Origin: Pseudomonadota bacterium
Lineage (GTDB): Bacteria; Pseudomonadota; Gammaproteobacteria; Steroidobacterales; Steroidobacteraceae
Reading direction: 5' to 3'
DNA: 31,126 nucleotides
Assembly (NCBI GenBank): GCA_021792815.1
Contig: JAJYTX010000006.1
Span: forward strand, 1 to 31,126
The stretch's first letter is position 1; every line of letters begins with the position of its first letter. A program made the translations under genes and the position numbers. Shown in pieces: positions 7,772 to 30,816 of the stretch. Under the pieces are notes generated by a model. That model searched no databases. It was not told where the DNA came from and saw only the letters and a list, made by a program, of their open reading frames with translations.

Positions 7772-7800
7772 TGCCCCCAATCTTGCCCCCACTTTGCACG
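7772..7800. repeat. Integrase arm-site candidate, tRNA-proximal end
   Basis: TGCCCCCA at 7772-7779 and 7784-7791 (12-bp step), then TGCAC at 7795-7799, the same layout and orientation as 1778-1806. A further TGCCCCC lies at 7741. The site is about 100 bp inside the att core at 7902 and just upstream of the integrase start, so binding there could also control integrase expression. Confidence 0.6.
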
Positions 7801-9260: not shown

Positions 9261-10859
9261 TCAATGCGCCCCAGCGGAGATCGCGGCGGCGTCGGCGCCC
9301 GCCTTGACGGGCCGCGCGAACCAGATCAGGAACACCATCGCGACGAACAGGATCCCCGAGACGTAGAAGATATCGTCCGCGGACATCATGTAAGCCTGGT
9401 TGTCGACCAGGTGATTGAGCAGCAGCGCGCCCTGCTGGCTCGAGAGCCCCTGAGCATGCATCTGCGCCATGAACTGCCGGGCTTGCGGATTGGAGGTCAG
9501 GCTCGCAACCAGCCGGTCGTGGTGCAGCCTTGCGCGGCGCGACCAGAGTGTCGTCGTGATCGAAGTCGCGAATGAGCTGGCGGTGATGCGCGCGAAGTTG
9601 ATCAGTCCCGAGGCGGACGCGATGCGCTCGGAATCCAGGCCGGAGAACGCCAGCGCCAGCAGCGGAATGAAGAACGTGGCCAATGCCGCGCCCTGAATCA
9701 ATGTCGGCGTCAGCATTACATCGAAGCTCGCCTGCGTAGTGAAGTCCGCCCGCATGAACATGACTAGCGCGAAGATGAGGAAGGACACGGTGACGAACCA
9801 GCGTGGATCGAAGCGGTCAACCAGCCGTCCGACGAGGGGCGTCAGCACGATCGCGAGCAAGCCTACCGGGGCGAGCACCCAGCCCGCGAGTGTCGCGGTG
9901 TAGCCCATGTACTGCTGCAGCCACAGCGGCAGCAGTACCACGGTACCGAAGTACAAGCCATAGCCGATGGACATCGCCACCGAGGCCACCAGGAAATTGC
10001 GCCTGGCGAACAGGTGCAGGTCCACGACCGGGTGCTTGTCCGTCAGCTCCCACACGAGGAATACCGTGAAGGAAATCGCCGCCACGATGGTGAGCGTGAC
10101 GATGAATGGTGAGCTGAACCAGTCAAGATCCTTGCCCTTGTCGAGCATGATCTGCAGCGAGCCCACCCACAGAACGAGCAGCCCCAGCCCCACCTTGTCG
10201 ATGGGCAGGCGTGCCGTGGGTGTCTCCCGGCGCCGGTAGATCGACCAGGTGATGGCCGCGGCGACGATACCGATCGGCACGTTGATGTAAAAGATCCACG
10301 GCCAGGAGATGTTGTCCGTGATCCAGCCGCCGAGAACCGGCCCGACCACCGGGGCCACCAGCGTCGTCATCGACCACACCCCGAGGGCCGACCCGGCGCG
10401 GGACTTCGGGTAGCTCGAGAGCAGCAGCGCCTGCGACAGCGGAATCATGGGGCCGGCCACCAGCCCTTGCAGGGCGCGGAACAGCACCAGAGTGCTGAAG
10501 GTCGGAGCGAGCCCGCACAGCGCCGAGGTGATCACGAACAGCAGCGTCGAGGCGGTGAACAGCCGCACCTGCCCGAGGCGGCGGGTCAGCCAGCCGGTAA
10601 GCGGCATGGAGATGGCGTTGGCCACGACAAACGAGGTGATCACCCATGTGCCCCGATCGGGGGAAACCCCGAGATCGCCGGCAATCGCCGGGATCGACAC
10701 GTTGGCAATGGACGTGTCGAGCACATTCATGAACGTCGCGAGCGACAGGGCGAGCGTCCCGAGAACGACCGCCATGCCCTCGAGCGGCGGCAAGGGCTGC
10801 GGGAGCGCCGCCCGAGGCGGCGCTTGCGGCTCCTCAGCCACTGATTGCTCCTGTGCCAC
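9261..10859 (-). CDS. emrB: EmrB-type multidrug efflux transporter (MFS, DHA2)
   Basis: Inner-membrane proton-driven drug exporter, expected to have 14 transmembrane helices, working with the adaptor encoded upstream. Family motifs are visible: LDTSIANVSIPAI in helix 1 (motif D1), GWLTRRLGQVRLF after helix 2 (motif A), and GPVLGGWI followed by SWPWIFYINVP (motif C and the DHA2 signature). The N-terminal 28 residues are Pro/Ala-rich and cytoplasmic. Length is typical (532 aa). GTG 10859 and GTG 10841 both have a GGAG at fair spacing; the start is uncertain by 6 codons. It follows emrA by 16 bp, so the two are co-transcribed. No TolC-type outer-membrane gene is in the window. Confidence 0.93.
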   Translation of the reverse strand: MAQEQSVAEEPQAPPRAALPQPLPPLEGMAVVLGTLALSLATFMNVLDTSIANVSIPAIAGDLGVSPDRGTWVITSFVVANAISMPLTGWLTRRLGQVRLFTASTLLFVITSALCGLAPTFSTLVLFRALQGLVAGPMIPLSQALLLSSYPKSRAGSALGVWSMTTLVAPVVGPVLGGWITDNISWPWIFYINVPIGIVAAAITWSIYRRRETPTARLPIDKVGLGLLVLWVGSLQIMLDKGKDLDWFSSPFIVTLTIVAAISFTVFLVWELTDKHPVVDLHLFARRNFLVASVAMSIGYGLYFGTVVLLPLWLQQYMGYTATLAGWVLAPVGLLAIVLTPLVGRLVDRFDPRWFVTVSFLIFALVMFMRADFTTQASFDVMLTPTLIQGAALATFFIPLLALAFSGLDSERIASASGLINFARITASSFATSITTTLWSRRARLHHDRLVASLTSNPQARQFMAQMHAQGLSSQQGALLLNHLVDNQAYMMSADDIFYVSGILFVAMVFLIWFARPVKAGADAAAISAGAH

Positions 10860-10875
10860 GGCCGTGCTCCGCCGC

Positions 10876-12204
10876 TCAGTTCATCCAGCGATCGTCGGCG
10901 ACCACGCGCGGGAGGGCCGGCTGCGAAACGGCGCCTCTGTCGGCCACACGCAGCGTCCGGCCAACCGTCCCGGCGGTGTGCGCGGGAGAGACCCCGATCG
11001 CGTTCCTCACGCCTTGCGAGCCTCCTCCGGCCAGGTGCGCGGCACCGGGATCGTTGGCCGCGATGATCTCGCGCACCGTCTGCTTGGCTCGCGCGTCGGC
11101 CGTGCGGAAAACGCTCGTGGCGTCGTTGGGGCCGCTGTCTGCCACCTCCGGCAGCCTTGGGCTTCGGTCATGGCGTACATCGACATACGCCCTCATGGAC
11201 AGCCCGATCTGCAGCGGATGCGCGGCCAACTCCTTCGGGTCGAGCGCGATGCGCACCGGCACGCGCTGCACGATCTTGATCCAGTTGCCGGTGGCGTTCT
11301 GAGCCGGCAGCAGCGCAAACGCGGCCCCCGTTCCCGCCCCGAACCCCACCACGCGACCGTGGAACACCACCGCGCTCCCATACAGATCGGAGGTCAGCTG
11401 CACCGGCTGGCCCACCCGCATGTCTGCCAACTGCGATTCCTTGAAGTTCGCATCGATCCAGACCTGGTTGAGCGGCACGACCGACATCAGCGGCGTCCCC
11501 GGGGCCACGTGCTCGCCGAGCTGCACGTTGCGCTTGGCTACGAAACCGGAAACCGGCGCCGGCAGTACGGTGCGCGCATAGGTCAGGTAGGCATCGTGCA
11601 CCGCCGCGGCGGCGGCGCGCACCGCGGGATTGTTGGCGACAGTCGTGCCATCGACCCAGGCCCGATTCGCCGCCAGCTGCTGCTGCGCGGCCATCAGGGC
11701 GGCCTGCGCGGCCTGCACCGCATCCTCGGCGTGCTGCAGATCCTCACGCGAGATCGCGCCGGTACGCGCCAAGCGTGCACGGCGCTCATAGTCGGACTGC
11801 ACCCTGGCCAGCTCGGTCCGGCGGACCAGCACGTTCGCGCGCAGCGCATCGGTGGTCGCAAAGAGATTGCGCACCTGCCGCACCGTGCGGGCAAGCTCGG
11901 CCTCGGCCCGCTGCAACGCCACCTTGGCGTCGGTCGGGTCCAGGCGCACGAGCGGCTGCCCGGATCCGACGTACTGCGTGTTGTTGGCGTCGATGGACAC
12001 TACTGTGCCGGAGATACGGGGCGTGATCTGCACAACGTTGCCGGCGACGTACGCGTCGTTCGTGTACTCCATGTACCGCCCGTAGCGCACCCAGTACACG
12101 CCGTATCCAGCGCCGGCGACAAGAGAGACCGCAAAAATCACGGTAAGCCAACGAGCCCTGGGGGTCTTCCAGAACGCTCGCACCTTGTCTTCGCTACTCG
12201 TCAT
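10876..12204 (-). CDS. emrA: EmrA-type membrane fusion protein (HlyD family)
   Basis: Periplasmic adaptor that links EmrB to an outer-membrane channel. From ATG 12204: cytoplasmic residues 1-18, one membrane anchor 19-38, the first beta/lipoyl half (NDAYVAGNVVQITPRISGTV) near 49-70, an Ala/Arg/Glu-rich helical hairpin about 90-200, the second lipoyl half (LPAPVSGFVAKRNVQLGEHV) near 217-236, and a beta barrel to about 345. The protein then runs on for roughly 100 residues. The first half of that tail (to REIIAANDPGA) resembles normal EmrA ends, while the last 50 or so are extra, Ala/Gly/Val-rich and unassigned. ATG 12204 with GGAGG/GGAG upstream is preferred to TTG 12213. Confidence 0.92.
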   Translation of the reverse strand: MTSSEDKVRAFWKTPRARWLTVIFAVSLVAGAGYGVYWVRYGRYMEYTNDAYVAGNVVQITPRISGTVVSIDANNTQYVGSGQPLVRLDPTDAKVALQRAEAELARTVRQVRNLFATTDALRANVLVRRTELARVQSDYERRARLARTGAISREDLQHAEDAVQAAQAALMAAQQQLAANRAWVDGTTVANNPAVRAAAAAVHDAYLTYARTVLPAPVSGFVAKRNVQLGEHVAPGTPLMSVVPLNQVWIDANFKESQLADMRVGQPVQLTSDLYGSAVVFHGRVVGFGAGTGAAFALLPAQNATGNWIKIVQRVPVRIALDPKELAAHPLQIGLSMRAYVDVRHDRSPRLPEVADSGPNDATSVFRTADARAKQTVREIIAANDPGAAHLAGGGSQGVRNAIGVSPAHTAGTVGRTLRVADRGAVSQPALPRVVADDRWMN

Positions 12205-12518
12205 GGCCTCCAACTCCCGGCGACAGCCGCCTCACTCCCATTACTCGTTGCCGTGGCTAAAGATGCCTAGGCAAATATTTGGCAAAAAAAACCCTTCGAA
12301 CAAGCGCTCCGGCTCCGCGCATTTCCCGCTCCAGGCAAGCCCGCGGCGTCCATTCCGCTTCGCCATCCTTGAGGCACCGCGAACGCCCGACGCACACTCC
12401 AGCCCGTCCGCTCCCGGCAGTGCGACCCGCCCCTGCACACCTGTTTGCCGCATACGGCAAACCCCTGGATGCCGCTCCTGACCTGCCCCTCCCGGACAGT
12501 CGATCGCCGATTCGCGGC
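12205..12518. other. marR-emrA intergenic region
   Basis: No gene is convincing here. It contains the operator-like motif at 12263-12274, a run of eight A at 12284-12291, and a hairpin GTTTGCCG-CATA-CGGCAAAC (12443-12462) 57 bp beyond the marR stop. The hairpin lacks a U-tract. Its TTGCC...GGCAA arms also resemble a widely spaced MarR half-site pair. Confidence 0.5.
12263..12274 (-). promoter_or_regulatory. MarR-type operator candidate upstream of emrA
   Basis: On the minus strand the sequence reads TTTGCCTAGGCAT, a near-match to the MarR consensus TTGCC-N2-GGCAA; its central GCCTAGGC (12265-12272) is an exact palindrome. The same GCCTAGGC occurs in the marR promoter. A TTGCCA 17 bp before CTTTAG could be a weak promoter around it. 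Confidence 0.6.
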
Positions 12519-13474: not shown

Positions 13475-13520
13475 GAGGCCGCCCCTGGGCGGGGGATCGG
13501 AGCGGCCCCGCCTCGGCCTC
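13475..13520. terminator. Possible bidirectional terminator
   Basis: GAGGCCG (13475-13481) pairs with CGGCCTC (13514-13520), with smaller GC-rich stems between. It lies between the convergent small gene and ggt and touches the ggt stop codon. No U-tract is present, so the call is weak. Confidence 0.3.
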
Positions 13521-15291
13521 AATACCCTGCGGCCAGCCCCTCGGGACGGATCGGGTAGTCGTTTGCGCCCTCCAGCAGGTGGGTGCGCGGATTGACGAGG
13601 ATCGCCTCATCGGCGCCCCAGAAGTTGAACCTCTTGAACCGGTACCCCATCGCCTGCAGGCGCCGCTTGACCGCCGGACGCATCATCCCCGGCTGGACGA
13701 AGACCACATCCGGATACCACTGCTGGTGCACGCGCGGCGCATCGACCGCCTGCTGCATGTTCATGCCGAAATCGACGACGTTGAGGAAGCTCTCGAGCAC
13801 GCTCGAGATGATCGTCGATCCGCCGGGGGCGCCCGTGACCATGAACAGCCGCCCGCCCTTGAGCACGAGGGTCGGGGCCATCGAGCTCAGCGGCCGCTTG
13901 CCGGGCTCGATCTCATTCGCCTTGCCCTGCACCAGACCGAAGGAGTTCGGCACGCCGGGCTTGGAGGTGAAATCGTCCATCTCGTTGTTGAGGAAGAAGC
14001 CGGTATCGCCGGCGATCTGCCCGAGACCGAAGAGGTAGTTGTCCGTGTACGTGACGGCGACCGCGTTGCCGTGGCTGTCGACGATCGAGTAGTTGGTCGT
14101 ATCATTGCCCTCATAAGGGCCCAGGCTCCCCTTGATCTCGGCCGACGGGGTGGCGGCATCCGGCTTGATGCTCGCCCGCAGCAGCGCCGCATGGTGCGCC
14201 GACAGCAACCGTCCGATCGGGTTGTGCACGAAGGCCGGATCGCCGAGGTAGGTGTTGCGATCGGCGAAGGCGCGACGCTCGGCCTCGACCAGATAGTGTA
14301 TGGACCTCACCGAGCCGTAACCCCACTTCGAGAACGGGTACGGCTTGATGATCTGCAGAACCTCGCACATCGTCACACCGCCCGAGCTCGGCGGCGGATC
14401 CGAGAGCACCGTGAAGCCGTGGTAGCGGCACTCGACGGGCTTCGCCCACTGCACGGTGTAGTCTGCGAAATCCTTCATCGAGAGGATGCCGCCGTGCGCG
14501 CGGCTCGCCGCGACGATCGCCCGGGCGATGGGTCCGCGATAGAAAGCGCGGCTGCCCTCGCGCGAGATCAGCTCAAGCGAGTGCGCGAGCTGCGGCTGGC
14601 GCAGCCGCTGTCCGGCCACATACGGCCTGCCGTGGTCGAGGAAAATCGCCGCGACGTTCTTGTGCCTGGCGAAATCCTTGAGCCGTGTATCGAGGATGTT
14701 GACATCACCCTGCTCGAGCACGTAGCCCTCGCGAGCCAGGCGGATCGCCGGGGCCATCACCTTCTGCCGGCTCATCGTGCCGTACTTGCGCAGCGCCGTA
14801 TCGAGGCCCAGGACCGTGCCGGGCACGCCCACGGAAAGATACGTCCGGGTGCTCAGGCCGGGCACGACCTGTCCCTTGGCGTTCTGATAGAGCGTCGGGG
14901 TCGCCTTCAACGGCGCCTTCTCGCGAAAGTCGAGAAAGACATTTTTGCCGCTCGCGAGGTGGATCATCATGAAGCCGCCGCCGCCGATGTTTCCACAGCA
15001 CGGGTGCACCACCGCAAGTGCGTAGCCCACTGCCACGGCCGCGTCCACCGCATTGCCGCCTTCCTTGAGGATCCTCAGCCCGACCTCCGTCGCCAGGTGC
15101 TGCGCGGTGACCACCATCGCGTGCCGCCCGAGCACCGGCCGATCGTGCGCGAGGGCGGCGATGGTGGCGGGCGGGGCGATCGAATCGAGCACGTGATCCG
15201 GGATCACGGCCCGGGCGGGGGCGGCGTGAGCCGATACCGCCGCCAGAGCTGCCGCGGCCGCCCATGCCAGATGAGTCTTGCGCCTGTGCAT
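13519..15291 (-). CDS. ggt: Periplasmic gamma-glutamyltransferase
   Basis: Cleaves the gamma-glutamyl bond of glutathione and related compounds, transferring glutamate to water or a peptide. From ATG 15291 (MHRRKTHLAW) the first 27 residues are a Sec signal peptide (AWAAAAALAAVSAHAAPARA), so it acts in the periplasm. The precursor should cut itself before the catalytic Thr (about 398, in NDTTNYSIVD, matching TTHYS of E. coli). Other family residues are present: the glutamate-binding Arg (about 123, FREKAP), PLSSMAPT near 454 and the oxyanion GG in GAPGGSTII. Length is typical. AAGG upstream favours ATG 15291 over GTG 15315. It follows the TonB receptor by 53 bp, so both are probably one transcript under the ECF sigma factor. 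Confidence 0.95.
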   Translation of the reverse strand: MHRRKTHLAWAAAAALAAVSAHAAPARAVIPDHVLDSIAPPATIAALAHDRPVLGRHAMVVTAQHLATEVGLRILKEGGNAVDAAVAVGYALAVVHPCCGNIGGGGFMMIHLASGKNVFLDFREKAPLKATPTLYQNAKGQVVPGLSTRTYLSVGVPGTVLGLDTALRKYGTMSRQKVMAPAIRLAREGYVLEQGDVNILDTRLKDFARHKNVAAIFLDHGRPYVAGQRLRQPQLAHSLELISREGSRAFYRGPIARAIVAASRAHGGILSMKDFADYTVQWAKPVECRYHGFTVLSDPPPSSGGVTMCEVLQIIKPYPFSKWGYGSVRSIHYLVEAERRAFADRNTYLGDPAFVHNPIGRLLSAHHAALLRASIKPDAATPSAEIKGSLGPYEGNDTTNYSIVDSHGNAVAVTYTDNYLFGLGQIAGDTGFFLNNEMDDFTSKPGVPNSFGLVQGKANEIEPGKRPLSSMAPTLVLKGGRLFMVTGAPGGSTIISSVLESFLNVVDFGMNMQQAVDAPRVHQQWYPDVVFVQPGMMRPAVKRRLQAMGYRFKRFNFWGADEAILVNPRTHLLEGANDYPIRPEGLAAGY

Positions 15292-15344
15292 CGCTTTCAA
15301 CCTTGTATCGCTCACGAATGCGTTAGTCTTGCAGATTACGGCCG

Positions 15345-18116
15345 TCAGTACCAGTGATACGCCACCGTGCCGTAGTAGTACGCGCCACTGAAGCCGAACG
15401 GCGAGGAATTCGGATACGGGAACATGCCGAAGACATTGTTGGCACTGTTGTTCTGCTGCGGATAGGTATTACCGAGATCGTCGCCGCCCACCGTCAGCAT
15501 CAAACGCCTCCACCGATAGGTGAGGCTCGCATCGAGCAGATAGCGCGCGCCGTAGGACTGCACGTTTGCGGCGGTGGTGCCAAAATACCTCCACTTCCCG
15601 TAGCGCGTGAGCTGAGCATGCGCCAGCCAGCGCCCGAGGTACCAGTCCGCTCCGATAGACCCTTTCGTGAGCGGCGCACTCACCGTGAGAAAGCCCCTCT
15701 CCTCCTGATCGACGATCGGCAGCACCAGTCCGTGCAGGCCGTCCTGCGGCGGATTCGGCGCAACGGCGATCAATTGGGTCTTGTTGTAGTTGAACCCGGC
15801 GCTCAGGGCCAGCCGCGAGCGGCCGAGCGCCAGTGTGTAGTGCGCCACCAGATCCGCGCCCCGCGTGCGCGTATCCACCCCATTGTAAAAGAATGCGCCG
15901 CCGTCCACGAACGGAATGCCCACCGAGGTGAGGTAGTCCTGCACGGCCGGACCGGTCAGGTTGCCGCTGAGGACGATGCGGTGCGCGATCGTGATCTGGT
16001 AGGCATCGAGCGTCGCATACAGCCCGTCATGCGGCGTGAGCACGAGCCCCACCGAGTAGCTGTGCGACTTCTCCGCCTTCAGCGGCTCCGCGCCGAGGGC
16101 CACCGCGGCCGGATTGCTCACCGGGAACTGGCGGATCGAATACGGCACATTATTTATGAACAGAAGCGATGTGCTCGAGTAGTACTCCTGCTGCAGGGTC
16201 GGGGCAAGGAAGCCGGTCGAGGCGGTCCCGCGCAGGGCAACCGCGTGATTGAATGCATAGCGGCCCGACAGGTCATACACGGTCGCCCCGCCGAAGTCGC
16301 TGTACTGCGTCCGGCGCACCGCGAACTCCGTTGACAGCCGCTTCGTCCAGTTGCTCTCGAGATCGAGGTATATCGCCCGGCTGTTGCGCGAGTGCGCGCC
16401 GGCATCCGCCGGTGTGTAGCCGGGGAATACCTGCGCTCCTTCGCCGGCATAGGATTGCGGGTCGCCCTGGCGCACGGAGAAATGATCGTACCCGTAGTCG
16501 AGGCCCCAGGCGACCAGCAGGCCGTTCGCCACCCAGCCCGGATTGAAGACGCGCTTGAAGTCGGCATTGACCATGCTCTGGCGGATCTTGGTCATGCCGA
16601 TGTAGAAGTCCGTGGGCGAGGCGCTGCCGAGCGAGTAATTGAAGGTGTCCGCCGTGTTGAGCTTCCAGGCGTTCCCGCCGGTGTCGGCGCTGAAGTCGTA
16701 GCTCCAGCCCAACAGCTTGCCGCGCACGCCGAGCACCTCCTGGTCGTCGAAGAGGTTGCTGTCCTCTATCGGCAGGTAGCCGCGCGGATAGACCGCGGCC
16801 GCGGCGGGCGAGCTGCTTTGATACTGCGCCAGCGAACGGAAGAACCCGCTCGACCACACGTCACGATGGTTGATGACCGTGAAGCCGTACAGATGGACCT
16901 CGGGGGAGAAGTCGTACTGCATGTTGATCGAGCCCTGCAGGCTGTGCACCTCCGGCAGACCATAGTGCATCGTGATCTTTCCATACATCGGATCACCGGG
17001 GAACAGCAGCTCCGGGTTGGCGCGGTTCGTGGGCCCCTGGCGAGTACCGTCGAAGCTCACGCGCACCCAGCCGTTGCTTCCCAATCGCACCCCCTCATCG
17101 ACGCCGCCGGTCACGGTTCTGCCGTCCCCCCTGATGAACTGACCGACCGTGAGGTTCGCCGAGCCGCCCCGGGCGCCGCGCTTGAGAATGATGTTGATGA
17201 CGCCCGCTATGGCGCCCGATCCGTACTGTGCGGCCGCGCCGTCGCGCAGCACCTCGATGTGGTCGATGGCGTTCATGGGAATGGCGCTGAGATCGACCGG
17301 CGAGGAGCCACGGGCGAACGTGTCATCGACGTTGGTGATCGAAGTGGTATGGACCCGCTTGCCGTCGATGAGCACCAGGGTCTCATTGGGAGAAAGGCCG
17401 CGCAGCTGCGCCGGCTCCGAGGCGTCGGTTGCATCGGTAACCGAGGATTGCGGGAAATTGAACGAGGGCAACAGCACGCTCAGCGCCGACGCCAGGTTCG
17501 ATGCGCCGGTCGCGGCCAGCTCGGCGGGGGTCACCACATCGATCGGGGAAAGCGAAGTCGCCTCCGTCACGCCGGCCTCCCGTGTGCCGGTGACCACCAC
17601 GGTGCGCAGCGCGGAATTCACAGCCGAGGGCGCCAGAGCGCTCCGGCTGACCGCCGCCGGCGCCGCGGTCGTTGGCGGATCGGGCGCTATCGCAGCGGCC
17701 ACCTTGGCCGCCGAAGGCGGATCGGACTGCGTCGCCGGCCTCCCTGCGGCCAGGGCCCGCGGAGGATTGGACCGCTGCGCCGCCGCGCCGAGCGCAGTGC
17801 CGGGGCGGCGTATTTCGATGATACTCGGACTCAGCTGGCGGTACGTGAGATGCGTACCGCCGAGCAGCCGATGCAGCGCGTAATCAAGGGTGACGTTGCC
17901 CCGCACAGCGGGCGCTTCGTGCCCGTCGGTGAGCCTCGAGAAAAACATGATCTGAATGCCGCTCTGGCGGGCGAGCTCCTGCAGCGCCGCGGCGAGCGGC
18001 TGGTGGCTGATCGCCAGATCAAAGGTCTTCGCCTCGCCACCCGCCGCCGCGGGGGTGCTCGCGAACAGGCAGATCAGCGCGGTCAACAACGCAACCACGG
18101 ACCATCGACGGTGCAT
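15345..18116 (-). CDS. TonB-dependent receptor with STN signalling domain
   Basis: Outer-membrane active importer that also reports ligand binding to FecR. Residues 1-25 are a signal peptide, 31-104 the STN domain (FDLAISHQPLAAALQELARQ), 105-170 an Ala/Pro-rich linker, and TVVVTG at 172-177 a TonB-box-like segment. The plug spans about 190-313 (LRGLSPNETLVLIDGKRV, then IEVLRDGAAAQYGSGAIAGV), followed by a 22-strand barrel to the C-terminal aromatic YHWY. At 923 aa it is intact. GGGGAGG 5 nt before the ATG is a strong ribosome site. The STN domain plus adjacent fecI/fecR-like genes marks it as a transducer. The ligand is not readable from sequence; a siderophore is usual for this system, but the neighbouring ggt suggests a peptide or glutathione-related ligand. 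Confidence 0.93.
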   Translation of the reverse strand: MHRRWSVVALLTALICLFASTPAAAGGEAKTFDLAISHQPLAAALQELARQSGIQIMFFSRLTDGHEAPAVRGNVTLDYALHRLLGGTHLTYRQLSPSIIEIRRPGTALGAAAQRSNPPRALAAGRPATQSDPPSAAKVAAAIAPDPPTTAAPAAVSRSALAPSAVNSALRTVVVTGTREAGVTEATSLSPIDVVTPAELAATGASNLASALSVLLPSFNFPQSSVTDATDASEPAQLRGLSPNETLVLIDGKRVHTTSITNVDDTFARGSSPVDLSAIPMNAIDHIEVLRDGAAAQYGSGAIAGVINIILKRGARGGSANLTVGQFIRGDGRTVTGGVDEGVRLGSNGWVRVSFDGTRQGPTNRANPELLFPGDPMYGKITMHYGLPEVHSLQGSINMQYDFSPEVHLYGFTVINHRDVWSSGFFRSLAQYQSSSPAAAAVYPRGYLPIEDSNLFDDQEVLGVRGKLLGWSYDFSADTGGNAWKLNTADTFNYSLGSASPTDFYIGMTKIRQSMVNADFKRVFNPGWVANGLLVAWGLDYGYDHFSVRQGDPQSYAGEGAQVFPGYTPADAGAHSRNSRAIYLDLESNWTKRLSTEFAVRRTQYSDFGGATVYDLSGRYAFNHAVALRGTASTGFLAPTLQQEYYSSTSLLFINNVPYSIRQFPVSNPAAVALGAEPLKAEKSHSYSVGLVLTPHDGLYATLDAYQITIAHRIVLSGNLTGPAVQDYLTSVGIPFVDGGAFFYNGVDTRTRGADLVAHYTLALGRSRLALSAGFNYNKTQLIAVAPNPPQDGLHGLVLPIVDQEERGFLTVSAPLTKGSIGADWYLGRWLAHAQLTRYGKWRYFGTTAANVQSYGARYLLDASLTYRWRRLMLTVGGDDLGNTYPQQNNSANNVFGMFPYPNSSPFGFSGAYYYGTVAYHWY

Positions 18117-18242
18117 AGCAGCCTCCCCGAAGAAGATTCAGCTGTAATCGATGTTCTTTGTGTAATTAGAGGCCGCGCGCGCCGACTTGGCCCCCCGTCG
18201 CGGGGAAATATATTGAGTCCCGGCGCGCCTCAGTCGCCACTC

Positions 18243-18258
18243 GTCGCGGGCCCGCGAC
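18243..18258. repeat. 16-bp perfect palindrome between fecR-like gene and receptor
   Basis: GTCGCGGGCCCGCGAC is a perfect palindrome, 8 bp after the fecR-like stop. In RNA it would form a 6-bp stem with a GGCC loop. A second small stem (CCCCG-TCG-CGGGG) is at about 18192-18204. No U-tract follows, so these may attenuate rather than stop transcription into the receptor gene, which would set regulator and receptor levels apart. Confidence 0.45.
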
Positions 18259-18266
18259 AGAGGCGC

Positions 18267-19484
18267 TCAGGGACGAGTTTGATTCACGGGTTGGTGAGCG
18301 CCGCTCATGTGTGCCGCGTCCCCCGCCCGAGGGCTCGAGAGCGTCACGACGCTCGCGCCATCGCCCGCGCGATGGATCTCGACGCCGGGCACGTCGCGCA
18401 GAAACGCGAGCAGCGACCCCGGATCGTCGATCTCGACCACTCCGGTGACCTTCCGGGCGCGCAGCGCTGCACTCGCGATCACGATGCGTTGGCCACTGTC
18501 GCGGTCGAGCTCATCGATCACCTCCCCGAGCGGGCGGTGCTCGAATACCAGCTGGTCGTGCATCCAGGCGGTGGTCGCGGACAGGTTGCTCACCGGACGC
18601 GGAGCGCTCACACCTCTCGAGGTGATCAACACCCGCTGCGCGACGCTGAGAACCAACGCGCCGGGCGGCGCCGGAAAATGCTCAAGCGACGGCCGCCTCC
18701 CCGGCGGCGCACCACCGGGGGGCGCGAACCATGCCGGGTTGACCGGCAGACGGGCCTGAGCGGCACTCATCACGGCCACCCGCCCCTGCAGCACGGTGAC
18801 CGCTGCGTATCGGTGAAGCATTGTGACGTCGAACTCCGTGCCGATTGCACGCACCACCTCACCGTCGGTGTGCACGTCGAAGGGGCGAGACGGATCGTGG
18901 CTTACCTGGAAGAGCGCCTCGCCGCGCAGAAGATGCACGACGCGGCGGCGCCTGCCGAGATCGACCACGACGCTCGAGGCGGAATTGAGCGTCACCCGCG
19001 AGCCGTCGGCCAGCAGGATCGAGCGCTGCTCTCCGGTACGGGTCTGATAGAGCTGCGCGCGCCCGGGCAGCCACAGCCAGAATGCGACCGCCGCGGCGAG
19101 CACGGCGCCGGCCGCAATCCACCCGCTGCGCCGCGTGCGCCGCCCGCGATCGACCGGCCCGCGGCTGGCGGCCAGCGGTGCATTCGGCCGCGCAAGGCCG
19201 GCTTCGCCGATGCCGACGGGCGTCGGCTCGAGGGAAGACCTGGCCTCGCGAATCAGTGTCTCGGGGGGGGTATCGGGCCAGCGCACCGCGTCGGCGCGCA
19301 GCACCGTCATCAGCCGCTCCATCGCGAGATAGGCCTCGATCCGCTCCGGGGAGCGCGACACCCAGGAGAGGAACTCGCGCCGATCGGCGGCCGTTACTCC
19401 CTCGCCGTGCAGCAGCGTCCACCATTGGGCCGCCTCCTCACGCCAGAGGCGGCGGGAATCCGAAAGGCGCGGCACGTCACTCAT
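18267..19484 (-). CDS. FecR-type anti-sigma factor / transmembrane sensor
   Basis: Inner-membrane protein that holds the ECF sigma factor and releases it when the receptor's STN domain signals. From ATG 19484 (405 aa): cytoplasmic sigma-binding DUF4880 region 10-60 (EEAAQWWTLLHGEGVTAADR, then EFLSWVSRSPERIEAYLAM), one membrane helix 120-140, FecR domain about 148-240 (SILLADGSRVTLNSAS, then GEALFQV and GTEFDV), and an STN-like C-terminal domain about 315-385 that contacts the receptor. A Pro/Gly-rich insert (APPGGAPPGRRPS) separates the last two. ATG 19484 overlaps the sigma stop by 8 nt, so the pair is translationally coupled. Confidence 0.92.
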   Translation of the reverse strand: MSDVPRLSDSRRLWREEAAQWWTLLHGEGVTAADRREFLSWVSRSPERIEAYLAMERLMTVLRADAVRWPDTPPETLIREARSSLEPTPVGIGEAGLARPNAPLAASRGPVDRGRRTRRSGWIAAGAVLAAAVAFWLWLPGRAQLYQTRTGEQRSILLADGSRVTLNSASSVVVDLGRRRRVVHLLRGEALFQVSHDPSRPFDVHTDGEVVRAIGTEFDVTMLHRYAAVTVLQGRVAVMSAAQARLPVNPAWFAPPGGAPPGRRPSLEHFPAPPGALVLSVAQRVLITSRGVSAPRPVSNLSATTAWMHDQLVFEHRPLGEVIDELDRDSGQRIVIASAALRARKVTGVVEIDDPGSLLAFLRDVPGVEIHRAGDGASVVTLSSPRAGDAAHMSGAHQPVNQTRP

Positions 19485-19965
19485 CGAGCGCACTGCGCAA
19501 TTGCTCGTAGGCGTGGGCCAGGTAGCGGCGCACCTGCCGCAGCGTCAGTCCAAGCTCCTGCGCGATCTGCTTGTACGAGTGCTCGTCCCGCAGCCGCAGG
19601 AGCACCGCCGCGCGCATCATCGGCGACATCTGCGCGAGCTGTTGATTCAGTCGCTCCTCCGAGAGCTTCGCGTCGACGGCAAGCTCGGGCAGGCACTCAT
19701 CGACCGGCGCGTCCGCCTCATCCAGACCCACCACCTCCGCAGGGTATTCACGCCGCCATTCGGCCACGACGTGACCCGCCACGCGAAGCAGATAGGCCTG
19801 GGGGTTGTGCACCTGCAGAAGATCGGGGGCACGAAGCAGACGCAGATAGATTTCCTGGGCCAGGTCCTCGACCTCGACCGTCGAGCGCACGCGGCGGCCG
19901 AGAAATTGCAGCAGGCTGCGGTTCCAGCGCCTGCGCCAGCCGACCAGCACGGTCGCGTTCGTCAT
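19477..19965 (-). CDS. ECF sigma factor, FecI-like
   Basis: About 162 aa from ATG 19965. Sigma region 2 is at residues about 12-75 (FLGRRVRSTVEVEDLAQEIYLRLL, then NPQAYLLRVAGHVVAEWRRE) and region 4 at about 105-155 (MSPMMRAAVLLRLRDEHSYKQIAQELGLT, then VRRYLAHAYEQL). It directs RNA polymerase to the receptor promoter when FecR releases it. Upstream codons at 20001 and 19977 are in frame, but GGGA 6 nt before ATG 19965 and the alignment with region 2 favour this start. It is first of the cluster fecI-fecR-receptor-ggt. No sequence matching a known FecI target promoter was identified. Confidence 0.92.
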   Translation of the reverse strand: MTNATVLVGWRRRWNRSLLQFLGRRVRSTVEVEDLAQEIYLRLLRAPDLLQVHNPQAYLLRVAGHVVAEWRREYPAEVVGLDEADAPVDECLPELAVDAKLSEERLNQQLAQMSPMMRAAVLLRLRDEHSYKQIAQELGLTLRQVRRYLAHAYEQLRSALDE

Positions 19966-20323
19966 GTTCGGTCCCATTCCCCCTGAGCCTCGGGTCTCCA
20001 CCAGTAATAGAGCGCCCTATTGCCCGTGTAGCCCCCCCTGGGCGCCGGGATTTCCGGGGAACTCCTGCGCGCCCCGCCTGCCCAACCTCGGGGCAGCCGG
20101 TCCGGGGCCGGGTGGCGCTCGACGAAGCCGTTGACGAGCGCCTGCGACGGGACGGCACACCCCTCATCCGCCCATCCATCCATCCGCCTGTATCAAGCCC
20201 GATCGCTTGCCATCCCCCGGGACAAGCGCGCAGAATTTGCCGCTTCATGAATTCCAAAAATACGCCCTCTCCCTGGCGGCCGCATTCGCATTTGGATTTG
20301 GATTTGAAGCCGAGGATTGCCCA
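19966..20323. other. Divergent intergenic region, sigma gene / tricorn gene
   Basis: 358 bp without a convincing gene; it should hold promoters for both directions. A short inverted repeat (AATAG/CTATT, about 20006-20021) lies upstream of the sigma gene. Three near-copies of TTTGGA/TTTGAA occur at 20290-20308, just before the tricorn start. No clear sigma70 promoter was found. Confidence 0.45.
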
Positions 20324-23901: not shown

Positions 23902-24504
23902 ATGGAGAAGGTGTTCATTTCGGCCGACGGACTGCTGCGGGACTCACTGGAGCTTGCCCGGCGGGTCCTCGCGAGCGGTATGCGCCCGACGTTCCTCGTC
24001 GCCATGTGGCGCGGGGGCGCACCGATCGGCATCACGGTGCAGGAAGTGCTCGAGTACCACTCGATTCACGCCGACCACATCGCAATCCGCACTTCCTCGT
24101 ACGAGGGCATCGACCAGCAGCACAAGAGCGTGAGAGTGCATGCCACGGACTATCTGGTGTCACGTCTCTCGGCCGAGGACGAGCTTCTGATCGTCGATGA
24201 CGTATTTGACTCCGGCCTCAGCCTCGAGGCGGTCATCGAAGAGCTGAGACGCCGCTGCCGGCGCAACCTGCCGGAGAAAATCCGCATCGCCACCGTGTAC
24301 TACAAGCCCGAGCGGCGGCGCAGCGCCCTCATGCCCGACTTCTTCGTGCACCAGACGTCCCACTGGCTGGTCTTCCCGCATGAGATCCAGGGACTGACGC
24401 GTGAGGAAATCCTGGCCCACAAGCCCGTTGGAACGAACTTCCTCGATCCCTTACCTGCCGCGACGTCCGCCTCACTCGGGGCGCCGGTCACACAACGGGA
24501 GTGA
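23902..24504 (+). CDS. Purine-type phosphoribosyltransferase
   Basis: 200 aa type I phosphoribosyltransferase, probably of the hypoxanthine/guanine/xanthine salvage group, joining a base to PRPP in the cytoplasm. The PRPP loop LLIVDDVFDSGLS is at residues 95-107 and the PPi loop region (AMWRGGAPIG) at 34-43. The C-terminal hood (YYKPERRRSALMPDFFVH, then TSHWLVFPHE) carries the aromatic/His residues that stack on the base. The exact base cannot be read. The last 25 residues are Ala/Pro/Thr-rich and overlap the antisense remnant of the sensor kinase by 17 nt. Its ribosome site is poorly spaced. Confidence 0.88.
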   Translation: MEKVFISADGLLRDSLELARRVLASGMRPTFLVAMWRGGAPIGITVQEVLEYHSIHADHIAIRTSSYEGIDQQHKSVRVHATDYLVSRLSAEDELLIVDDVFDSGLSLEAVIEELRRRCRRNLPEKIRIATVYYKPERRRSALMPDFFVHQTSHWLVFPHEIQGLTREEILAHKPVGTNFLDPLPAATSASLGAPVTQRE

Positions 24505-26105
24505 AGCGGTCAGTCCGCAGCGCCGAGAAGACACGAATCAGCGAGTCGCGCACCCGCACAATCAGGTTCTTTTCCGAATATTCGAGCTCGATTTCGATTC
24601 GCCGGCCCCGTGAGTGCCTCAATGCATTGCGAAACGCCTCACGCTCGACCTGGTAGAGCTCATCACGCACCACCGGCGCGAGCAAGCGCCGCCTGCCCGT
24701 CCCGTAGAAACGGTATGCGAGGTCTTCCCCCCCGTTTGCGCCGAGCTCCTCGACCCACGCCTCGAGCGCATCCGCAAGATCGCCGGCGCCGCGCGCGGAA
24801 GCGCGCAGGTCCTGCACGGCATCGCGGACCTCTGCGATCGTGCTGTCCCCGCGATGCAGCGCCTGTTCGAGCGCATCGGCAGCGGCCACCGGCTGTTGAG
24901 GAAGCAGGTGTCGGACACCCTGGAGCCGGAACATCAGGCCCTGAACGCCCTGCAGGAGCGAATCATGAAACTCGCGTGCGATGCGATTGCGTTCTGCGAT
25001 GCGCTCTCTGGAGCGGATCTCATATCGCCGCGCAAGCTGGCGCACGCGCACCAGATAAGCGACGTACAACATGGCCGCACCGGCTGCGATGCAGAGCGCG
25101 AGGAACCAGCGAGTCTGATAGAAAGCCGGCAGGATGCGGAAACGCACGGTGGTGGGATTTCCGCACCGGGCGCCGCTGGTATCGCTCGCCTGCACACTGA
25201 AGTGATATACCCCGGGCGAGAGATTTCGATATGCCACCGGACCTGCGGTGTCCACCTCGTGCCAGGCCTTGCCGGTGTCGGCAGGCTTGTAGCGGAATCG
25301 AATGGCCTCCGGATTCGACACACTCACGGCCGCAAAAGTGATGCGCACATCGGTGGTGCGTGGCGCGAGCCGAAGCACAGGACCGACAGGATACGACTCG
25401 CCGTTTGCCGATAGAGACTGCAGTGACACCGCGGGCCGCCCGGCGCGCAGCCCCGGGGCTGGGGGATCAAGCGATGCCCCCCCCCCGATCGCCCGCGAAC
25501 CTGAGTCGTCCGTCGCTTGCCTCAATGACGCTCGGCAATGGGCGCAGCTCCCCCGGGGTCCCTGGCACGCCCTGGCGTATTCCCAGATGCTGACCGTGGA
25601 CGAGGTGGTTCGGATCCTTCAATGCTTAGGCGATTTCGGCACGCCGGATGTGAAAGACCCCGGCAGCCCCATATATCCACGGATCCCGGTTTCGGGTCGC
25701 CGCGATTCCGGAGATGCCGGAGAGCCAGTCTTTATTGACCGCCTCGATGCGGCGAAAACGGCCTGCGCCATATTGCTGCAACCCCCATTCCCCGCCTATC
25801 CAGATCCTGGCTCCCCGCCCATAGAGCGCCGTGATGTTGCCGACGCGGGCACCCTGTTTGGCGGTGAAGAGTCGTACCCGGTTGCCACTCAGCACGGCAA
25901 GGCGATCGTCCGTGCACCCGAACCACACGCGGCCGAGGCTATCCGTGAATTCAATGATGACATCGTTCTTCGGTAGATCGTCATATCCTCCGTCGGCCGT
26001 CCATTGCCCATGATCCACCCTATACAGGTCATTTCGCCCGCGGAACCGGCAGACGCGCAGGCGCTGATCGCGTCGATATCGCAATTGAGATGTGAACTCT
26101 CCCAC
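24488..26105 (-). pseudogene. Broken beta-propeller sensor histidine kinase
   Basis: Remnant of a large two-component sensor. At 25626-26105 lies propeller sequence (GRVWFGCTDDRLAVL, then ARIWIGGEWGLQQY); an in-frame TAA at 25626-25628 follows RRAEIA, and the same frame continues with typical family sequence (ALKDPNHLVHGQ, then PLPSVIEASDGRLRFAGDRG). A run of ten C at 25487-25496 then shifts the frame; nine or twelve would restore it. The second frame carries a Y_Y_Y domain, one membrane helix, and HisKA_3 with its phosphate-accepting His (REFHDSLLQG). It has the N-box Asn (EAFRNALRHS), but the ATPase ends at VRD, where the G-box should begin, and is replaced by sequence antisense to the neighbouring gene. 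The 5' part of the propeller is also missing. It cannot make a working kinase. Confidence 0.85.
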
Positions 26106-27177: not shown

Positions 27178-30100
27178 ATGTCTGACCCGGTAAGACCGTT
27201 GCTTTGGACCGATGCGATGGCGACGGGCATCGTCGTGGTCGATGAACAGCATCAGCGGCTGCTGGAGATCTTCAATCGCCTGGCACTCGCCCATGCGGAG
27301 GACGCCGCGCACGAAACCGTGCTTGCGAGCCTCGATGAGCTGGTCGACTACGCCCGCTATCACTTCCGCGAGGAAGAGCGGTTCATCTGCCATTCGCGGC
27401 TCGATTCCAGGCACCGCGCGATGCATCTGCAGGCCCATGAGAGCTTCTGCGGATTTCTGCGGCAAGCCCGGGCTTTCACGTCGGAACACGCGTCGGAGAT
27501 GACCGTCGAGCTGCTGGCGTTTCTCGCGCAATGGCTGCTTCACCACATCATGGAGGTCGACAGGCAGATGGCGCGTGAAATCGAACTGCTGCGGACCGCC
27601 GACGCTGCGGGGGATGCCGCGCCCGGTCCGGCCCGTGATGCCAGGGACGACGTCGCACAGACCGTGAGCCAGCTGACGGATCACCTGGGGCAGCGGACGA
27701 TCGCCCTGCTCGGGCAGCGCCAGCAGCTCATGAATCTTCAGGCCCTGTATCGGGCTCTGCTGCATTGCGGCGATGTGCTGATTCATAGCCGCGAGGAGCA
27801 GGAGATGCTCGACAGCCTCTGCACCAAGCTGGTGCAGGGCACCGTGTTCCATACGGCATGGATCGGCAGGCCCGGAAATACGAGCGTATTCGACGTGCTG
27901 GCGCTCGCCGGCGAGGGCGCAGAGCAGGTGCGGGGCGCACCGCCGGAATTGACGGATCAGGAATGCGCCTCCGTCATCGTCAAGGCCTGGAATCGACAAC
28001 AGCCGGTCGTCTGCAACGACACCCTGACCGATCCGACATTGCGGCCATGGCACGCGGACTTCGTCGCACACCGCTGGCTCAGCATGCTCGCCATTCCCAT
28101 CACGCGGGCTGGAAAGATGTGGGCGTTACTGGTGCTGGCATCGCCCCGGAGCGCGTGCTTCGATGAGGCTACGATCGAAGTGTGCACGCGGATCGCGGCT
28201 TTGCTGGGGCATGGAATCGATGAGCTCGACGCCAAGAGCCGCGTCCAGGCGCGCCAGCTGCGGGATGCTCGGATTGCGCGCACCGACATGCTCACCGGGC
28301 TGCCGAACCGGCTGGCTCTCAAGGAGTACCTGCCGCAGGCCATCGCCCGGGCACGCCGCCGCACGACATCCGTGGCGGTCGGCGTGATCGATCTCGATGA
28401 TTTCAAGCCGGTCAATGACCAGTTGGGGCATGAGGCCGGAGACGAGCTGCTGCAGTGCATTTCGCGCGGCCTGCTCGAGTGGCTGAGAGACTCGGATTTC
28501 ATCGCGCGCGTGGGCGGCGATGAGTTTGTGGTGGTCCTGGAGGACCTGGAGCCGACACGGGCGATACCCCAGCTCGGGGCCGCGCTCAAGCATCTGCACC
28601 GGGCGGTGGAGGAGGCCTTCCGGTTGAGCGTGGGGAAGACGGTGTCGATCGACATGACCATGGGCGTGGCCCTGTATCCCGCCGATGGACATGAACCGGA
28701 GCTGTTGCTGCGCCAGGCCGATGCGGCGATGTACCAGGCCAAGCAGACCAAGAGTGAACGGACGCAATGGTGGCGGCTCGGCGCAACCACCTCGCCGGAG
28801 CAGATCGCAGAAGCGACTTTCGATACCTTCGGCCCGGAGGCAATGGAGTCCATGAAGCGCCTGGCGCCGCATCTGCAGACAGTGTCGGAGAAGTTTTCGG
28901 CGGCGTTCTATCGGGAGTTGCAGTCGCACCCCGAGAGCGCCGCGATCCTCGCATGCCTGACCGAGGCGGAGTATCACGCGCTCGCGCGCACTCAGGCGGC
29001 GCACCTGCGCTTTCTGCTCGATGCGCGAACCACGGAACAGGCGTTGGTCAGGACCGCCGACCGGGTCGGCACGGTCCACGCCCTCATCGGCGTCTCAGGT
29101 GCGTGGATGACGAGGGCCACGGGATTGTATCGCGATCTGTTGCGCGCCCATCTGGATGCGGCGTTGCTCACCACACGCACGCGCTACCTGACTCTGCGAG
29201 CCGCCGATGCCAGGCTGCAATTGGACATCGAGACCCAGCTGCAGGCCATGCAGTCCGTTCTCGATCAATACCAGTTGCTGCTTGCGCGCCCGATGGGCGA
29301 CGGGACTTCGACGGCGGACTGGACTCAGACTGAGCTTGCCGCGCTGGCCGCGCTGCCGGGCATACGCTTCGCGGCGTTGATCCGGCCGGACGTGCAGAAC
29401 CGGCTCATCATAGAGCGCGCGGCCGGTGAAGACGCGGATGCGTTCATCGAGGCGCATCGCGTGCGCGACCTTTACCCGGTGCTTGATCCGAGGGATGTGC
29501 GCGGTCGCGGGCTGGTGGCGGGCACCTGGATGACCGACTCTCAGCAAGAGACGGCCGCCTATTGGCTCGACAGTCGCTCTCAGCCCTGGCAGGCTCTGTT
29601 GCAGGAGTTCGGCATACGCAGCGCGGTAACTCTGCCCGTTCATCGGCATAATGCGATCCATGCCGTACTGATGCTCTTTGGCGCTTACCCGCACCAGTTC
29701 GCCTCCGGCTGGATGCGCACCTGGCGCCTGTCGCTGCAGAACCGCTGGGATCTGATGACGGTGATGTCGCACGGCAGCTGGCATGCGATCGACTCCGGCC
29801 AGGCCGCGCAGATCCGCTCGCTCCTCTACAGCGGGGGCGTAGAGATGTTCGTGCAGCCGGTCGTCAACCTCGCAGACGGCTCGCTGGTGAAGGTCGAGGC
29901 GCTGGCGCGGCTGCGCACGCCCGAGGGCACCTTCCTGACTCCTGAGAAATTCCTGCCGGCGCTTGGAGAAACCGACCTCGACTCGCTCTTCCGGCAGGGA
30001 CTGGTGCAGGGGCTGGAGCATTTACGCCGCTGGCGCGACGAGAAGCTGGACATCCGGCTGTCGATCAATCTCGCGCCGAGCTCTCTGGTGCACCCGGACT

Positions 30101-30816
30101 GCGCGCGATGGATCGACGAGGCGCTGCGCGAGGCGCAGGTGGCGCCTCAGCATCTGACCCTCGAGCTGCTCGAGAGCCAGGCACTGGAGGCGGGCGCGGT
30201 GGATGAAGCCATCACCCGGCTGGCCTCGATGGGTGTCAAGATCGCGTTGGACGATCTGGGGGCGGGGTTCAGTAACTTGAAGCGCCTTGCGGAACTGCCC
30301 TTCGACGTGATCAAGATAGACCAGAACATCATCAAGGATCTCGCCTGCGATCCGATCAAGGCACTGTGCCTCATCCGGACCGTCGTGCAGATCGGCCATG
30401 ATCTGGAGCGTGAGGTGGTGGCCGAGGGCCTGGAGAATGCGGGCATCATCGAGGCGGCAAGGCAGCTCGGCTGCCGCTACGGACAGGGGTATGGGCTGGC
30501 GCGGCCGATGCCGGCAGCGGCGCTGGCGGACTGGCTCCGGACACGCGCGTTCTGCGGCGGCGATGGATGCGGCCTGCAGAGCTGGATCGGCGCGCTCGCC
30601 TATCAGTGGATGGTGATGCACGATGCGCTGAGTCTGCGTCTTCCGGGCGAGCTCGACTCGTGTCCGGTCACCGGGTTCTTCGCGGCACAGGAGATACATG
30701 ATGCACAGATCCTGCAGTGGCATCGGCAAATTCATGAGGATCCGGACGAATCGACCCGTCTGCACGCCATGCGCCACCTGACACACTGGATGACGCGCAA
30801 GACTCGGGACAATTGA
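27178..30816 (+). CDS. Hemerythrin-GAF-GGDEF-globin-GAF-like-EAL c-di-GMP enzyme
   Basis: 1212 aa, cytoplasmic. Residues 10-135 are a bacteriohemerythrin with a full di-iron ligand set: H25, H62, E66, H83, H87, H123, D128. Residues 190-355 are GAF-like. GGDEF spans 362-530, with an intact active site (446-450) and product-inhibition site R437-x-x-D440. Residues 545-700 match a globin-coupled sensor: distal Y578 (AAFYRE), proximal H634 (RVGTVHALIG). Residues 715-865 are a second GAF-like region. EAL spans 885-1115, with E907 (EAL), N964, E996/E999, D1025-D1026, K1046, E1083 and Q1103 all present. The last 97 residues are unassigned. Both synthesis and breakdown of c-di-GMP look possible. ATG 27178 is chosen because MSDPVRPLLW begins the hemerythrin fold; ATG 27172 is equally possible. 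Ribosome site weak. Confidence 0.93.
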   Translation: MSDPVRPLLWTDAMATGIVVVDEQHQRLLEIFNRLALAHAEDAAHETVLASLDELVDYARYHFREEERFICHSRLDSRHRAMHLQAHESFCGFLRQARAFTSEHASEMTVELLAFLAQWLLHHIMEVDRQMAREIELLRTADAAGDAAPGPARDARDDVAQTVSQLTDHLGQRTIALLGQRQQLMNLQALYRALLHCGDVLIHSREEQEMLDSLCTKLVQGTVFHTAWIGRPGNTSVFDVLALAGEGAEQVRGAPPELTDQECASVIVKAWNRQQPVVCNDTLTDPTLRPWHADFVAHRWLSMLAIPITRAGKMWALLVLASPRSACFDEATIEVCTRIAALLGHGIDELDAKSRVQARQLRDARIARTDMLTGLPNRLALKEYLPQAIARARRRTTSVAVGVIDLDDFKPVNDQLGHEAGDELLQCISRGLLEWLRDSDFIARVGGDEFVVVLEDLEPTRAIPQLGAALKHLHRAVEEAFRLSVGKTVSIDMTMGVALYPADGHEPELLLRQADAAMYQAKQTKSERTQWWRLGATTSPEQIAEATFDTFGPEAMESMKRLAPHLQTVSEKFSAAFYRELQSHPESAAILACLTEAEYHALARTQAAHLRFLLDARTTEQALVRTADRVGTVHALIGVSGAWMTRATGLYRDLLRAHLDAALLTTRTRYLTLRAADARLQLDIETQLQAMQSVLDQYQLLLARPMGDGTSTADWTQTELAALAALPGIRFAALIRPDVQNRLIIERAAGEDADAFIEAHRVRDLYPVLDPRDVRGRGLVAGTWMTDSQQETAAYWLDSRSQPWQALLQEFGIRSAVTLPVHRHNAIHAVLMLFGAYPHQFASGWMRTWRLSLQNRWDLMTVMSHGSWHAIDSGQAAQIRSLLYSGGVEMFVQPVVNLADGSLVKVEALARLRTPEGTFLTPEKFLPALGETDLDSLFRQGLVQGLEHLRRWRDEKLDIRLSINLAPSSLVHPDCARWIDEALREAQVAPQHLTLELLESQALEAGAVDEAITRLASMGVKIALDDLGAGFSNLKRLAELPFDVIKIDQNIIKDLACDPIKALCLIRTVVQIGHDLEREVVAEGLENAGIIEAARQLGCRYGQGYGLARPMPAAALADWLRTRAFCGGDGCGLQSWIGALAYQWMVMHDALSLRLPGELDSCPVTGFFAAQEIHDAQILQWHRQIHEDPDESTRLHAMRHLTHWMTRKTRDN

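Follow-up and report, generated by a model that had tools for sequence, protein, structure and literature searches.

We found that one open reading frame in the window, the whole 31,126-nucleotide stretch of DNA that was analysed, encodes a protein in which a predicted di-iron hemerythrin sensor and a predicted haem globin sensor are joined to both a GGDEF and an EAL domain, and we conclude from the sequences compared that this hemerythrin-globin c-di-GMP protein is a conserved family and not a chimera. c-di-GMP is a signal that controls biofilms. The reading frame lies on the forward strand where the original prediction had placed it (27178-30816), running from an ATG at 27178 to a stop codon that ends at 30816 (1212 aa); from a GTG at 27085 upstream the frame is likewise open, such that a longer protein is possible.

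Profile matches placed the hemerythrin at the N-terminus and the globin between GGDEF and EAL, as proposed (Table 1), and in the profile search that the original prediction had called for, Hemerythrin, Protoglobin, GGDEF and EAL all scored above their curated cut-offs. Those four domains were correctly named, but a GAF domain (205-348), a weak second GAF and a conserved C-terminal tail had been overlooked. Thus, by profile matches, each enzyme domain has its own sensor and GAF-type domain N-terminal to it. The second GAF-like domain is a weak match (PF13185, 23.9 bits against a Pfam cut-off of 28.6) and has alternating strands and helices in the predicted model. The full-length predicted model has a pTM of 0.49 with unreliable placement of one domain relative to another, and the matches from a fold search were filled by GGDEF and EAL.

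Table 1. Coordinates in the window of the predicted protein and its domains.
Feature	Position	Strand	Evidence
1212-aa protein: hemerythrin-GAF-GGDEF-protoglobin-GAF-EAL-tail	27178..30816	+	profile matches
Hemerythrin (HHE) domain, residues 17-132	27226..27573	+	PF01814 E 3.1e-10; PDB match 4xpx
GAF domain 1, residues 205-348, between hemerythrin and GGDEF	27790..28221	+	PF13185 E 2e-20
GGDEF domain, residues 368-527	28279..28758	+	PF00990 E 2e-41; motif positions
Protoglobin (haem globin sensor) domain, residues 551-693	28828..29256	+	PF11563 E 6.8e-12; HemAT profile match
GAF-like domain 2, about residues 720-841, between globin and EAL	29335..29700	+	PF13185 E 5.2e-5
EAL phosphodiesterase domain, residues 878-1110	29809..30507	+	EAL profile 189.7 bits (cut-off 31.3)
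C-terminal helical tail, residues 1118-1212	30529..30813	+	conserved H1148, C1162, H1182, H1186

The hemerythrin domain matched PF01814 (41.1 bits; curated cut-off 25.3) and TIGR02481 (85.4; cut-off 51.75), reached the NCBIfam bact_hemeryth (NF033749) cut-off of 84 exactly with a score of 84, and aligned with the bacteriohemerythrin chain 4xpx of the PDB (E 1.1e-8). The region is all-helical in the predicted model (19-40, 45-72 and 77-140). All seven of the di-iron ligand positions named beforehand are present, comprising five His, one Glu and one Asp (H25, H62, E66, H83, H87, H123 and D128), and in an alignment of the protein with the best 120 of the 670 homologues that passed our search (121 rows, 60 with hemerythrin), all seven are kept in 56 of the 60 hemerythrin rows.

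The globin matched Protoglobin PF11563 at 46.1 bits (curated cut-off 25). A single-sequence PDB search with the globin domain alone matched no globin-coupled sensor; a 20-sequence globin profile matched Tlr1989 (8h17), HemAT (1or4), 2w31 and AfGcHK (5ohe, E 0.026). On the profile alignment, counted by hand, the predicted distal Tyr (Y578) and proximal His (H634) align with HemAT positions 70 and 123, which are the distal Tyr70 and proximal His123 of that protein (PMC13401364). Both residues, as first proposed, are present and conserved across homologues: H634 is kept in 120 of 121 rows (60/60 with hemerythrin) and Y578 in 109 of 121 (55/60). Globin-coupled sensors as a class have an N-terminal globin followed by an output domain (PMC13401364). 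This layout is seen in the second half of our protein taken alone, and not in the whole protein, where the globin is internal (551-693), after hemerythrin, GAF and GGDEF.

The enzyme domains likewise keep their key residues. The GGDEF profile scored 141.9 bits (cut-off 23.8), and the GG(D/E)EF and RxxD patterns occur as GGDEF at 446-450 and the I-site RDSD at 437-440. The EAL signature lies at 907-909, and all ten EAL positions checked are present, so that the GGDEF, I-site and EAL residues are intact, as originally reported. We take E907, N964, E999, D1025, D1026, K1046, E1083 and Q1103 to be the EAL catalytic positions, by which the domain presumably classes as an EAL phosphodiesterase.

We considered that the protein might be an assembly chimera or a set of chance domain matches, particularly as the named records are metagenome-assembled genomes. 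However, Hemerythrin and Protoglobin occur together in 57 of the best 120 of 670 homologues, and a close relative is encoded in 18 of the 58 genomes of the genus examined, with all seven hemerythrin ligands in each of the 23 loci read there. These counts contradict a chimera, which we regard as exceedingly improbable, and the conservation across homologues argues against chance matches. We conclude that the family is conserved because of these double-domain homologues and the ligand conservation in the 121-row alignment. Most hemerythrin-less relatives retain GAF, GGDEF, Protoglobin and EAL, and they list PAS, MASE1, CHASE or an extra GAF (from domain lists, with domain positions verified for 7 proteins); such variety would follow if the first sensor were an exchangeable input. 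Two relatives (P0116 and P0122) have a PAS domain between the first GAF and GGDEF, which suggests that the two-module layout is not fixed. On a quick core tree, the hemerythrin label requires 7 changes, and three main-clade rows that lack the label (P0049, P0050 and P0054) come from shorter proteins. On a tree of the hemerythrin domain, the family rows lie close together, with the outside rows, only two in number and on branches >3, placed within the set.

Our preferred reading, which we advance tentatively and rate somewhat short of even in likelihood, is that two tandem sensor-GAF-enzyme modules form a push-pull oxygen/redox switch for c-di-GMP, with hemerythrin-GAF-GGDEF as the synthesis module and globin-GAF-EAL-tail as the breakdown module. 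When oxygen is scarce, or in the reduced state, the di-iron site would be diferrous and the cyclase on, while the globin haem would be unliganded and the phosphodiesterase off, such that c-di-GMP would rise. On entry of oxygen, the di-iron site would be oxidised, turning the cyclase off, and the haem would bind O2, turning the phosphodiesterase on, such that c-di-GMP would fall. Since both sensors would push in the same direction, the switch would be sharper than either alone would give. We infer cofactor binding and the pairing of sensor with enzyme from the sequence, and the sign of each sensor's effect is taken from characterised relatives. Vibrio cholerae Bhr-DGC shows tenfold higher activity when diferrous (PMC9388753). 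Among globin proteins, an HD-GYP phosphodiesterase works in both its Fe(III) and its Fe(II)-O2 form, and DcpG, a globin-GGDEF-EAL protein, favors EAL in the O2 form and GGDEF in the NO form (PMC10882959). Characterised globin cyclases go either way, as O2 activates several and inhibits PccGCS (PMC8846402). Bhr-HD-GYP, the sole hemerythrin phosphodiesterase in one review, is active when reduced (PMC9388753); if the hemerythrin controlled the EAL domain in this fashion, oxygen would turn breakdown off, contrary to the push-pull switch.

The original idea that the two sensors set synthesis and breakdown separately fits the sensor and GAF that precede each enzyme, but the two arms are unequally kept. 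The ten EAL positions are intact in every row covering all ten (57/57 hemerythrin rows; 61/61 others), with the signature reading EGL in 3 of 60 hemerythrin rows. In contrast, a strict GGDEF is found in 48 of 60 hemerythrin rows, compared to 58 of 59 other rows covering the motif, and the 12 departures fall in the first two positions (7) or in the last (GGDEL; 5). The I-site Arg is missing in 7/60 hemerythrin rows, and GGDEF is altered in five of the 23 genus loci (DGDEF in 4, GDDEF in 1). Thus, some members of the family may act chiefly in breakdown, and synthesis may be dispensable, given the rows with an altered GGDEF or without the I-site Arg. These counts speak for a rival explanation in which the protein is mainly a phosphodiesterase, with both sensors gating EAL and with GGDEF serving a regulatory role through GTP binding, and RmcA, which has GGDEF and EAL domains and acts mainly as a phosphodiesterase, is a precedent (PMC8846402). 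We think this credible but on the whole doubtful: our protein keeps both GGDEF and I-site, as do 43 of 60 hemerythrin rows, and the altered rows lie mostly in a few neighboring branches of the core tree (by eye), and so may reflect few independent events.

It is also conceivable, if unlikely, that a single sensor works and that the other domain has a structural role or a different ligand; the hemerythrin might, for instance, sense iron or NO. In two hemerythrin rows (P0052 and P0053) the distal Tyr is replaced by Arg or Ser, and neither has a precomputed Protoglobin hit (P0052 matches Protoglobin at E 0.0049). Metal binding or detoxification has been discussed as a function of hemerythrins (PMC10101095; PMC3770913). 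However, the ligands of both sites are generally kept, as the counts for the seven di-iron ligands and the proximal His indicate.

The C-terminal tail (predicted model pLDDT 84.6) is conserved at H1148 (98/117 rows), C1162 (111/118), H1182 (110/118) and H1186 (107/117). This His-Cys-His-His set, like the 3His/1Cys of CZB zinc domains, is found in our protein, in 53 of 57 hemerythrin rows covering the tail and in 39 of 61 other rows. In a Pfam search of the protein no family matched the tail, nor does PF13682 (CZB) detect it; against 28 members, the best E from PF13682 was 0.032, and a search for CZB in genome G001 gave no match at E 0.01. The profile-profile score of the tail against CZB was 18.4, a value reached in 1 of 200 column shuffles (hhalign probability 4.6), whereas four other domains of the protein reached no more than 13.3 when compared with the tail. 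Fold searches did not point clearly to a CZB fold or away from it. Between its first His and its Cys, the tail is spaced unlike the CZB sequences compared. The residue set of the tail resembles that of CZB domains, with membership unproven. DgcZ of E. coli, a CZB-GGDEF protein, has a similar 3His/1Cys set (PMC8262984); its CZB is N-terminal, unlike our C-terminal tail, which PF13682 misses. An extension of the push-pull reading that we think improbable is a three-metal integrator that would read redox state through the di-iron site, O2/NO through haem, and zinc or oxidants through a zinc-type His/Cys site. The di-iron and haem sensors would act in push-pull on synthesis and breakdown, and the His/Cys site would gate breakdown.

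Several known proteins share parts of this architecture. Bhr-DGC of V. cholerae has an N-terminal hemerythrin upstream of a GGDEF cyclase, whereas ours has a GAF between the two, and then globin, second GAF, EAL and tail; Bhr-HD-GYP from the acid mine drainage bacterium Ferrovum sp. PN-J185 likewise has a hemerythrin before a c-di-GMP phosphodiesterase, but as HD-GYP in place of EAL, and the account of it mentions no GGDEF or globin (PMC9388753). DcpG of Paenibacillus dendritiformis couples a globin sensor to both GGDEF and EAL activities, but hemerythrin is not mentioned in its description (PMC10882959). AFE_1712 of the acidophile Acidithiobacillus ferrooxidans shares Protoglobin, GGDEF and EAL with ours and ends in a zinc-type domain, where ours has its CZB-like tail, but is described as Protoglobin-GGDEF-EAL-CZB, with globin first and no hemerythrin (0 mentions in the main text; PMC6416229). 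PG_0686 of Porphyromonas gingivalis has a hemerythrin domain and is reported to make c-di-GMP, but has PAS10 and DUF1858, non-canonical ligands and no GGDEF motif (PMC10101095). An earlier survey counted one hemerythrin protein combining GGDEF and EAL (PMC2556348). We found no description of hemerythrin and globin in one c-di-GMP protein in the literature covered, few subscription papers falling within its scope; thus the suspected novelty held in that no prior description was found, but the architecture is not a one-off and recurs in many public sequences. If the protein acts in the way we propose, one polypeptide would sense oxygen by two iron chemistries and set both production and destruction of the messenger, and a single purified protein would suffice to test whether paired sensors give a sharper response or split it into two oxygen ranges. 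It would then also be an instance of hemerythrin joined to EAL, which a 2022 review listed as not yet discovered (PMC9388753).

A promoter scan found nothing, and at E 1e-50 no plasmid record spanned 80% of the protein; one spans 27%, inside the EAL-tail part. Judged by eye from ORF starts alone, six other loci share no neighbor. The upstream tricorn-type protease and phosphoribosyltransferase ORFs also adjoin the gene for an 85% relative (L013), as judged by their first residues.

Domain searches placed both sensors in this protein, and the order claimed in the original prediction (hemerythrin N-terminal, globin between GGDEF and EAL) matches the Pfam domain positions. The seven di-iron ligands (H25, H62, E66, H83, H87, H123 and D128), the distal Tyr and proximal His (Y578 and H634), and the I-site and GGDEF motif likewise lie where that prediction had put them.

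Features of the window and of the query protein
Feature	Position	Strand	Remark
Phage-integrase-family protein	478-1581	-	
Toprim protein	2834-5152	-	flanked by the two integrase-family proteins
Phage-integrase-family protein	6486-7799	-	
MFS transporter adjoining HlyD-type membrane fusion protein	9261-12213	-	
Gamma-glutamyltranspeptidase, STN-domain TonB-dependent receptor, FecR, sigma-70 family factor	13519-20001	-	consecutive
Two ORFs between phosphoribosyltransferase and query gene	24488-26105	-	Y_Y_Y and HisKA_3 in one
Query ORF	27178-30816	+	1212 residues
Hemerythrin	residues 17-132		Pfam, above curated cut-off
GAF	residues 205-348		Pfam, above curated cut-off
GGDEF	residues 368-527		Pfam, above curated cut-off
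Protoglobin	residues 551-693		Pfam, above curated cut-off
GAF_2	about residues 720-841		E 5.2e-5, below cut-off (700-872 scanned alone)
EAL	residues 878-1110		Pfam, above curated cut-off

We searched with the whole protein, found 670 homologues and examined the best 120. According to precomputed Pfam matches, PF01814 and PF11563 occur together in 57 of these 120, and PF01814 occurs without a Protoglobin match in five more (P0052, P0053, P0057, P0069 and P0109). We aligned the query with the 120 (121 rows) and counted as hemerythrin rows the 60 that keep five or more of six hemerythrin ligands in the columns of the query; P0109, P0114 and P0116, with an N-terminal hemerythrin in a different layout, were left out. 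We found that the seven ligands are complete in 56 of the 60 (H25 uncovered in two, a single substitution in two), and that the proximal His is present in all 60, the distal Tyr in 55, the I-site Arg and Asp in 53, and the ten EAL positions in 57 (two partly covered, one uncovered), with Gly as the middle letter of EAL in three. The GGDEF motif is strict in 48 and reads GGDEL in five, DGDEF in four, GDDEF in two and SGDEF in one. The other 61 rows have the proximal His in 60, the distal Tyr in 54, the ten EAL positions in 61, and a strict GGDEF in 58 (GGDGF in one, uncovered in two).

Most hemerythrin-less relatives among the best 120 of 670 retain GAF, GGDEF, Protoglobin and EAL, and PAS, MASE1, CHASE or an extra GAF appear in their domain lists. 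Judging from these lists, hemerythrin looks like one of several possible inputs, and globin is a usual component between the two enzymes. Domain positions were examined in seven relatives, six with hemerythrin and P0070 with an N-terminal GAF; P0116 and P0122 carry a PAS domain after the first GAF and before GGDEF. When only the hemerythrin domain served as query, a search among proteins 0.55 to 1.75 times the length of the whole protein found 51; 50 combine hemerythrin, GAF, GGDEF and EAL, and the other, P0123, has histidine kinase domains.

Every part is already known, as are multi-sensor c-di-GMP proteins. A 2022 review of hemerythrin sensors states that an EAL phosphodiesterase with bacterial hemerythrin was not yet discovered (PMC9388753), although a 2008 survey counts one hemerythrin protein with GGDEF and EAL (PMC2556348). 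Full-text searches pairing hemerythrin with globin or EAL terms gave, among the passages opened, none describing hemerythrin and globin in one c-di-GMP protein. The claim that this exact order is undescribed stands for the passages opened, yet both sensors recur in the 57 homologues.

Among 100 genomes sampled from the family, seven of them from the window's genus, three have a match at E <= 1e-100, all of that genus. Within the genus, 18 of 58 genomes examined have a match (11 of the 28 with completeness of 90% or more and contamination of 5% or less), and one genome, G286, has three full-length copies. In the 23 genus loci read, the seven di-iron ligands are present in all, 21 have the full set of ten EAL positions (a contig end or unknown bases truncate the remaining two), and GGDEF is altered in five. 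The altered loci (L063, L064, L065, L066 and L077) read DGDEF or GDDEF with EAL positions intact; in G286, L077 stands alongside two GGDEF copies, L062 and L084. In G129, matches to the gene fall in two different frames (L028 and L030); since unknown bases lie between them, we treat the split as a contig gap, not a proven frameshift. Scanning named genomes, we obtained 16 loci: L016, with a GGDEF match alone, and 15 relatives (66-85% identity), all from metagenome-assembled genomes whose labels go no further than Proteobacteria, Pseudomonadota or Gammaproteobacteria. One homologue among the best 120 of 670 bears a Steroidobacteraceae label. The nearest genome has one protoglobin match, that in this protein; its hemerythrin matches number six, including an overlapping adjacent pair on a single contig.

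We considered how the two sensors might act, based on passages describing relatives. Vibrio cholerae Bhr-DGC is ten times as active when diferrous as when diferric, and Bhr-HD-GYP activity is restricted to the reduced form (PMC9388753); both the Fe(III) and the Fe(II)-O2 forms of a globin HD-GYP phosphodiesterase are active, and DcpG shifts towards EAL with O2 and towards GGDEF with NO (PMC10882959). Globin cyclases with either sign of response are known (PMC8846402). If the relatives' signs are placed on its two modules, the query would be a push-pull switch, with c-di-GMP rising at low oxygen and falling as oxygen enters. The chief competing reading, a phosphodiesterase whose GGDEF would be regulatory, is supported by how constant EAL is and by how GGDEF has eroded in some members of the family.

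The C-terminal tail has conserved His 1148 (98/117), Cys 1162 (111/118), His 1182 (110/118) and His 1186 (107/117) in the alignment, matching in type the ligands described for CZB zinc domains (PMC8262984). Pfam CZB gave no match to the query and, at best among 28 members, E 0.032. A tail profile scored 18.4 against 32 CZB domains, as high a score as one in 200 column shuffles gave; the profile alignment pairs the Cys and the HxxxH pair, at an hhalign probability of just 4.6, and structure searches with the tail had no CZB chain among the matches listed. We term the tail CZB-like, a candidate rather than an assigned member; the description of an Acidithiobacillus protein as Protoglobin-GGDEF-EAL-CZB (PMC6416229) lends this plausibility.

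Elsewhere in the window, 478-7799 is perhaps an integrated mobile element, the transporter and fusion protein perhaps an efflux pair, and the cluster from gamma-glutamyltranspeptidase to the sigma factor looks like a surface-signalling uptake cluster. The two ORFs upstream of the query gene, the second with no Pfam match, are perhaps a decayed two-component gene. The corresponding interval in L013, the 85% relative, spans just about 0.5 kb.
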